NCBI RefSeq assembly: GCF_900114465.1
Contig: NZ_FOTD01000019.1
Span: 1-48,012 of the forward strand
Origin: Trichococcus palustris
GTDB lineage: Bacteria; Bacillota; Bacilli; Lactobacillales; Aerococcaceae
Length of the DNA stretch: 48,012 nucleotides
Direction: 5' to 3'
Below, in pieces: positions 1,142-48,012 of this stretch. The notes beneath the pieces were generated by a model that did no database searches, was not told the origin of the DNA, and saw nothing but the letters and a program-made list of their open reading frames with translations. The position numbers and the translations under genes were made by a program. Within the stretch, counting starts at the first letter, position 1. Every line of letters starts with the position of its first letter.

Positions 1142-1171
1142 ATTATACACCTTAGAACAGGCGTTCACCAA
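1142..1171 (-). promoter_or_regulatory. tnpB promoter with LexA/DinR-type SOS box
   Basis: Read on the minus strand: TTGGTG (1166-1171), an 18-nt spacer, then TATAAT (1142-1147), 27 nt before the tnpB ATG. The spacer holds GAACGCCTGTTC on the minus strand (1155-1166), an exact GAAC-N4-GTTC match to the Gram-positive LexA/DinR core. A repressor bound there would block RNA polymerase. The second tnpB at the other end of the window has the same arrangement. Confidence 0.6.
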
Positions 1172-47482: not shown

Positions 47483-47531
47483 GTAAAGAACTATCGAACA
47501 TTTGCTTATTTAACAGCTTTTTATCTTCAAT

Positions 47532-47617
47532 CCGACAGAAGACTCCCACCTCAAGGAAATGATAGGGCCATAGCCCAATGAGTAGGCGGGAGATGAATGT
47601 CGGTAGGCGTCAGCCTA
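47532..47617. ncRNA. Folded RNA-like element at the edge of the second tnpB
   Basis: CCGACA (47532-47537) pairs with TGTCGG (47598-47603). After symmetric 5-nt internal loops, CTCCCACC (47543-47550) pairs with GGCGGGAG (47585-47592, one mismatch). An inner GGGC-CATA-GCCC hairpin (47565-47576) caps it. Directly after lies TAGGC-GTCA-GCCTA (47604-47617). The outer part looks like the right-end/omega-RNA scaffold of tnpB elements, but here it is upstream of tnpB; the last hairpin is at the left-end distance. Orientation and function are inferred. Confidence 0.45.
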
Positions 47618-47659
47618 TTTGTTTGTCGAAAAATCTTTGCCCTTCCTACAACTTCGCCT

Positions 47660-47688
47660 TTGATAACGAACATAAGTTCGTGTATAAT
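47660..47688 (+). promoter_or_regulatory. Second tnpB promoter with LexA/DinR-type SOS box
   Basis: TTGATA (47660-47665), a 17-nt spacer, TATAAT (47683-47688), 25 nt before the ATG. The spacer is almost entirely ACGAAC-ATAA-GTTCGT; the core GAACATAAGTTC (47668-47679) is an exact GAAC-N4-GTTC LexA/DinR match. Confidence 0.7.
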
Positions 47689-47713: not shown

Positions 47714-48012
47714 ATGATCATCCACAAAGCGTACAAGTTTCGACTCTATCCCTCGAAGGATCAACAAATTTTGATTGGGAAGACCATTGGCTGCTCCCGT
47801 TTCGTGTTCAATCACTTTCTGTCCGAATGGAACCAAACCTATGAGGATACAGGAACTGGACTGAGCTATGGCACATGCTCGGCCAATCTGACAGCGCTGA
47901 AGAAGGAAGCGGATACCCTCTGGCTGCAGGAAGTGGATAGCATCGCATTGCAGTCCTCTTTGCGGAATCTCAGCGATTCCTTCGACCGCTTTTTCAAAAA
48001 GCAGAACAGCGC
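47714..48012 (+). CDS. tnpB: TnpB-family protein, truncated by the window end
   Basis: The first 99 codons of a TnpB. The opening HKAYKFRLYPSKDQQI, then SRFVFNHFLSEWN and LQSSLRNLSDSFDRFFKKQN match the N-terminal region of the complete copy at 14-1114, at clearly different sequence, so the two are separate elements rather than a recent duplicate. AAGGAGGTGAG precedes the ATG. The RuvC residues lie beyond the window. Confidence 0.92.
   Translation, partial: MIIHKAYKFRLYPSKDQQILIGKTIGCSRFVFNHFLSEWNQTYEDTGTGLSYGTCSANLTALKKEADTLWLQEVDSIALQSSLRNLSDSFDRFFKKQNS

Follow-up and report, generated by a model that had tools for sequence, protein, structure and literature searches.

The tnpB-only elements at both ends of the analysed window carry, at their promoters, a palindrome that is very probably a LexA operator, through which tnpB would be repressed until DNA damage causes LexA self-cleavage and the gene is transcribed. 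Such elements are most likely LexA-repressed and SOS-induced, a reading that the sequence comparisons described below support and that reaches wider than an earlier note on this DNA had claimed. The window is the whole of contig C8, 48,012 bases in length, from a Trichococcus palustris genome of 2.93 Mb in 52 contigs.

At the right end of the window, positions 47660-47688 read TTGATA-ACGAACATAAGTTCGTG-TATAAT, with a -35 hexamer at 47660-47665 and a -10 hexamer at 47683-47688 of the forward strand, 11/12 consensus bases and a hexamer spacing of exactly 17 nt in the promoter scan. Since shuffles of this region are expected to yield about 1.1 promoter-like matches, the TTGATA and TATAAT hexamers by themselves are weak proof of a promoter. 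Inside the spacer lies a 16-nt palindrome, ACGAACATAAGTTCGT (47666-47681), exactly as the earlier note had described it, and its 14-nt core CGAACATAAGTTCG (47667-47680, forward strand), a predicted LexA (SOS) box, matches the strict pattern CGAACN4GTTCG at 10/10 positions. This is the only strict core in the window, against a shuffle mean of 0.08 and at least one core in 7 of 100 shuffles. The LexA consensus reported for Bacillota (Firmicutes) is CGAACRnRYGTTYC, with the core GAACn4GTTC (PMC2248561); the centre of the window's core, ATAA, agrees with its R, n and R and disagrees with its Y, and the final base is G where the consensus has C. As a candidate LexA operator, the site combines the GAACN4GTTC palindrome with promoter overlap. 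The ATG of the B-family tnpB follows 33 nt 3′ of the core, with an AAGGAGG ribosome site in between.

The gene behind this promoter (47714-48012, forward strand) is the 5′ part of a B-family tnpB that runs off the contig end and carries PF12323 (HTH_OrfB_IS605). Its protein starts like that of the full-length contig C26 copy, in which three TnpB Pfam domains were found and which matches ISDra2 TnpB (8bf8) with an E value of 1.7e-99; the assignment to TnpB, by OrfB_IS605, Cas12f1-like TNB and HTH domains and by ISDra2 TnpB homology, is made on full-length copies, the window's B copy being cut at the contig end. Best matches in the protein search were 92-93% identical and came from Trichococcus species. 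Alignment of the six own-genome copies placed the approximate left end of the element at 47520-47525 (forward strand), where the common sequence starts at about TTTAT-C and different host flanks begin. A stem-loop close to this end (47602-47619, forward strand) is kept in all six aligned copies. An Rfam search of the window matched no RNA family.

The left end of the window holds a complete A-family tnpB on the reverse strand (14-1114; PF01385, PF07282 and PF12323; start at residue 42 (M) of P0001), whose translation contains GIDLG, IET and DRDIN, which we take to be the RuvC site motifs. Its -10 hexamer, TATAAT, lies at 1142-1147, and a predicted LexA-type box, GAACGCCTGTTC, at 1155-1166 (both reverse strand), 7 nt 5′ of the hexamer; the box matches at 8/10 positions, its outer bases being mismatched, and no -35 of this gene passed the promoter scan. 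The two tnpB copies of the window had been called unrelated and credited with an operator at the same promoter position. They are divergent, but their TnpB proteins are homologous (41% identical), and the positions agree roughly rather than exactly, with the B box inside the spacer and the A box ahead of TATAAT. No tnpA was found on the searched upstream sides of 15 A and 20 B loci, and elements with tnpB and no tnpA beside it are presumably of the IS1341 type. Both window ends (1-16 and 48012) lie in or adjoin tnpB copies, and several other contig ends of the assembly likewise fall in tnpB copies.

Genome-wide, CGAACN4GTTCG occurs at 12 sites, versus 5 for a reversed control pattern, and each of the 12 is positioned upstream of a tnpB gene: six of the B family, five of the A family (P0001-like) and one of a family on contig C7. 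Eleven of these sites are at the promoter, and the C7 site is 31 nt 5′ of the likely -10. The looser GAACN4GTTC gave 45 sites versus 45 in the control, so that the genome-wide excess is confined to strict boxes. Viewed by family, GAACN4GTTC is present in 6/6 B copies and in 7/8 A copies, the eighth (C12) being one base off; identity over matched parts is 79-97% among the B copies and 83-92% among the A copies. Two other tnpB families carry AGAACTGGCGTTCG three bases 5′ of TATAAT (C23 family) and CGCACATATGTTCG immediately 5′ of TATAAT (C18 family), and the offset of the box from the -10 varies between tnpB families (0, 2, 3 and 6-7 nt).

Boxes were not found in the upstream regions of family C (four contig-end copies with one sequence), C38, C15:88745, C12:231411, C11:8813 and a broken D copy. 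Absence of the box from other tnpB copies, which the earlier note had named as speaking against its proposal, is thus partly real, in families C, C38 and D and in own-genome paralogues of the box-bearing C23, C18 and C7 families; the design is therefore lineage-specific and not universal. The box as a general trait of all tnpB genes was accordingly ruled out, by the box-free families C, C38 and D and by the 25 Exiguobacterium loci of the B-like search, none of which has a box of at least 8/10. The family C copies (contigs C11, C49 and both ends of C20; 67-68% identical to B) have identical box-free promoters and form a natural negative control.

Within the genus, two protein searches of 13 Trichococcus genomes yielded 20 B, 15 A and four A-like (F) loci, plus four family C copies that were not counted as B. 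GAACN4GTTC is kept in 15/15 A, 19/20 B and 2/4 F promoters, giving 34/35 for A and B together. Among the B loci, the single copy that departs from it comes from genome G011, which is only half complete (51%), and one of the two box-free F loci sits behind a tnpA gene. Twelve further loci from other tnpB families of the genus have no exact box. Over 60-nt stretches anchored on the box, mean identity is 71% in A and 64% in B. In conservation profiles anchored on the best box, and hence biased towards the half-sites, all eight half-site columns are invariant in A and six of eight in B, the G011 copy being responsible for the two variable ones. Mean entropy over the four centre positions is 0.88 bits in A and 1.19 bits in B, and these positions take 7 and 11 different 4-nt forms, respectively, one centre column also being invariant in A; flanking columns have mean entropies of 0.76 (A) and 0.95 (B), with 8/46 and 5/46 invariant. 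The distance from box to start codon is near-constant, at 32-39 nt, in the A and B families and in both box-bearing F copies, indicating that the same site was picked in all of them. Near-fixed arms around a variable centre are the pattern expected where a dimeric DNA-binding protein, such as a dimeric repressor, selects its site.

The host encodes one canonical LexA, which matches solved LexA proteins over nearly the whole length, and the same kind of box is found at its lexA and recA genes. The lexA promoter carries CGAACATTTGTTTG in the own genome and CGAACATCYGTTTG in nine relatives, and recA carries CGAACATCCGTTCA; at least one box of at least 8/10 is present at the lexA promoter in 21/21 genomes checked, 10 of them Trichococcus. 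Boxes occur at three further genes, with AGAACGTCCGTTCC at one, which we take to be uvrA, and AGAACGCACGTTCT at two whose products resemble YolD-type partners of a repair polymerase. Besides the canonical LexA, a weak LexA-domain match at C14:72879 (E 0.002) falls below the cut-off. The proposal of a selected regulatory design is borne out by half-sites that are near-fixed while the centre drifts in 34/35 promoters, and by lexA and recA having an operator of this kind.

Beyond the genus set, a pooled test covered 224 regions 5′ of tnpB genes, chosen by protein homology and not by box. Rows L182 (Trichococcus), L197 and L199 (no N-terminus) were dropped, L128-L134 were excluded as likely duplicates of the genus set, and 11 operon loci of the 224 regions were left out for want of a usable tnpA promoter. 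The class-wide A-like set comprised 29 automatic loci outside the own genome (G000) and 60 fetched regions, among the matches listed. Outside Trichococcus, exact GAACN4GTTC is present in 15/126 tnpB-proximal regions, representing 5/52 single-linkage lineages, counts that are diluted because the rule sorting tnpB-only loci from tnpA-tnpB operons is heuristic and some "tnpB-only" regions read as a tnpA end (e.g., L321). Among all 256 palindrome arms, GAAC ranked first outside Trichococcus (5 lineages; next best 3, mean 0.23 lineages) and also first within the genus (36/43 tnpB-proximal regions). With 5-nt arms and matches of at least 9/10, CGAAC came second among 1024 arms outside Trichococcus, with 11 clusters to the 12 of TTTTT, and first inside. 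Counting the 11/84 clusters as 11 independent origins outside the genus was rejected, because most of them form one g45 family after stronger clustering; 5/52 lineages is the fair figure. A chance match of the box was ruled out by the 12/12 genome statistic, the conservation and these rank tests. The comparison of tnpB upstream regions in the genome and in related genera, suggested earlier as a check, thus found the box recurring, and the idea of a design shared by several tnpB lineages gained from further lineages that carry the box in a different placement.

In relatives from other families (G126, G169, G333 and G101) and in Neobacillus L144 the box is just 3′ of the -10 and covers the likely start site, as it does with one mismatch in G146 and G082; this different arrangement points to separate origins. 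One Paenibacillus/Cohnella group has CGAACRTATGTGCT at the -10 in 5/8 tnpB loci and near variants in the other three, and the CGAACRTATGTGCT variant is also found at the lexA promoter of G030. In the loci concerned (L186, L188, L190-L194 and L207), the CGAACRTATGTGCT-type motif overlaps the tnpB -10. Boxes of the form GAACN4GTTTG occur in Bacillus sp. V3B (4 loci), Ectobacillus and one Domibacillus locus. L301, L146 and L190 are tnpB-only loci with boxes, and L234 is also tnpB-only. Ten of the 15 exact boxes outside Trichococcus belong to one family of genus g45, which from its left-end sequence we take for Exiguobacterium or kin. In this family (L352-L357, L372, L373, L376, L378 and L381) a longer dyad (TGACAGAT ... 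ATTCCGTCA) encloses the box, about 85-100 nt 5′ of the start, which makes the role of the box less certain, and no clear -10 adjoins the box in these tnpB copies. Similar boxes are present at lexA of the four g45-type genomes checked.

At the tnpA promoters of tnpA-tnpB operons, exact GAACN4GTTC was found in 0/44 regions, which is what chance would give for a single arm (mean 0.11 lineages). The box was rejected as a feature of these operons, with one exception. An own-genome family of 437-aa tnpB genes, outside the 44-region set, follows a tnpA gene (contigs C12, C15, C24 and C50; L072, L073, L074 and L076) and has CGAACRTAYTTTCG (9/10) directly 5′ of a TATAAT-like hexamer at the tnpA start in 4/4 copies, so that absence of the box from operons is not absolute.

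Readings other than a LexA operator were weighed against these data. The palindrome could belong to the transposon itself as a structural or protein-binding element, such as a TnpA hairpin or a TnpB autorepression site, unrelated to LexA; the conserved left-end stem-loops of these transposons and the nesting of the g45 box in a longer dyad are in keeping with this. However, the box is distinct from the left-end stem-loop and occupies the space between the promoter hexamers, it shares its arms with the LexA sites of recA and lexA, and its exact form is missing from the 44 operon tnpA promoters, where TnpA should need it. Its recurrence at several offsets from the -10, and in other genera over the likely start site, likewise argues against a fixed transposon part, an explanation that we regard as improbable.

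Nor does common descent readily account for the pattern. An ancestral tnpB promoter might have acquired the box once, and the box might persist without function by hitchhiking in young copies, as the homology of the A and B proteins and the close relatedness of the own-genome copies would allow; yet the 60-nt promoters differ on average by 29% (A) and 36% (B), while the half-sites are unvaried in A and varied in one B copy. This explanation was already disfavoured, and its probability is very small. Equally slight is the probability that another repressor with a similar palindrome binds the site. Prophage-type and HdiR-like regulators are candidates for such a protein, and the weak match at C14:72879 might represent one, but the genome has a canonical LexA, whose own promoter bears CGAACATTTGTTTG, or CGAACATCYGTTTG in the nine relatives.

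With LexA as the regulator, binding between the -35 and -10 would block RNA polymerase, and after DNA damage RecA filaments would trigger LexA self-cleavage and thereby tnpB transcription. A guide RNA would be made alongside the tnpB transcript; TnpB is reported to process its guide RNA out of its own mRNA (PMC10278001). Irradiation raised ISDra2 excision about 8- to 13-fold and did not raise tnpA expression (PMC2806898), because the transposase needs single-stranded DNA, and damage-raised excision implies that emptied donor sites should be commonest while SOS is on. According to the homing model, the proposed role of TnpB is to cleave emptied sites, which lets recombination copy the element back in (PMC8612924). 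A LexA-controlled nuclease would appear when single-stranded DNA, and hence element excision, is high and recombination functions are induced, and its cuts at emptied donor sites could be mended with the sister copy as template, so that the element is restored. Such control could benefit the element by placing cutter, recombination proteins and emptied sites in one time window, with the nuclease otherwise off, and the box may in this way link transposition or homing to DNA breaks, as the earlier note had suggested. TnpB cuts might themselves act as SOS signals and close a feedback loop. We suggest, tentatively and with somewhat more doubt than confidence, that the RNA-guided homing of tnpB-only elements is under SOS control in Trichococcus and, repeatedly, in other Bacilli, the cuts feeding SOS and amplifying tnpB as a damage-triggered, self-amplifying gene drive. 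If so, TnpB made after damage would cut emptied donor sites at a time of elevated excision and induced RecA-dependent repair, and each donor-site or off-site cut could boost tnpB expression.

TnpB nucleases are likely ancestors of Cas12, and to our knowledge little is known of when and why they are expressed in natural hosts. A conserved SOS operator suggests an answer for one group of elements, namely that TnpB is made when DNA is broken. If true, this would tie the TnpB homing model to a physiological signal, help to account for the tolerance of a potentially toxic nuclease present in many copies, and bring RNA-guided nucleases into the set of mobile-element functions under LexA. Integron integrases are tyrosine recombinases, not RNA-guided nucleases. 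Their control by LexA is a parallel case in which SOS governs the recombinase of a mobile element (PMC3108266). Closer to the present arrangement, LexA boxes overlap the promoters of the rcr transposase genes of ISCR1, ISCR2 and ISCR8, for which LexA binding and SOS induction were shown by gel shift and reporter in 2026; the same article counts only a few articles on SOS regulation of IS elements, and the word TnpB is absent from its main text (PMC13393415). Those elements encode an HUH (Rcr) transposase in Proteobacteria with CTGT-N8-ACAG, whereas the present ones are tnpB-only elements of Bacillota that encode an RNA-guided nuclease and carry GAAC-N4-GTTC. ISDra2 of Deinococcus has a homologous TnpB and is stimulated by DNA damage (PMC2806898; PMC8612924); unlike the control proposed here, that stimulus acts on the single-stranded DNA substrate and not on tnpA expression, and the portions of these sources drawn on describe no LexA box. 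In the LexA regulon of Clostridium difficile, GAAC....GTTT at -217 is given, in one strain column only, for a gene whose annotation reads simply 'Transposase', a single, far-upstream site without family-wide conservation, unlike the tnpB boxes (PMC4234289). Full-text searches of open-licence papers for TnpB together with LexA or SOS found none that reports LexA control of tnpB in its title or the opening of its abstract. LexA control of mobile-element genes is known, and its application to RNA-guided nucleases would be the new element here.

Two further sites in the own genome were seen outside the tnpB context. At G000:C6:3362 (L109), AGAACGTGCGTTCT lies about 100 nt 5′ of a gene with at least 242 codons, a possible extra SOS gene. 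At G000:C30:26834 (L116), GGAACGTTTGTTCG lies 105 nt 5′ of a gene resembling those for replicative DnaB-type helicases.
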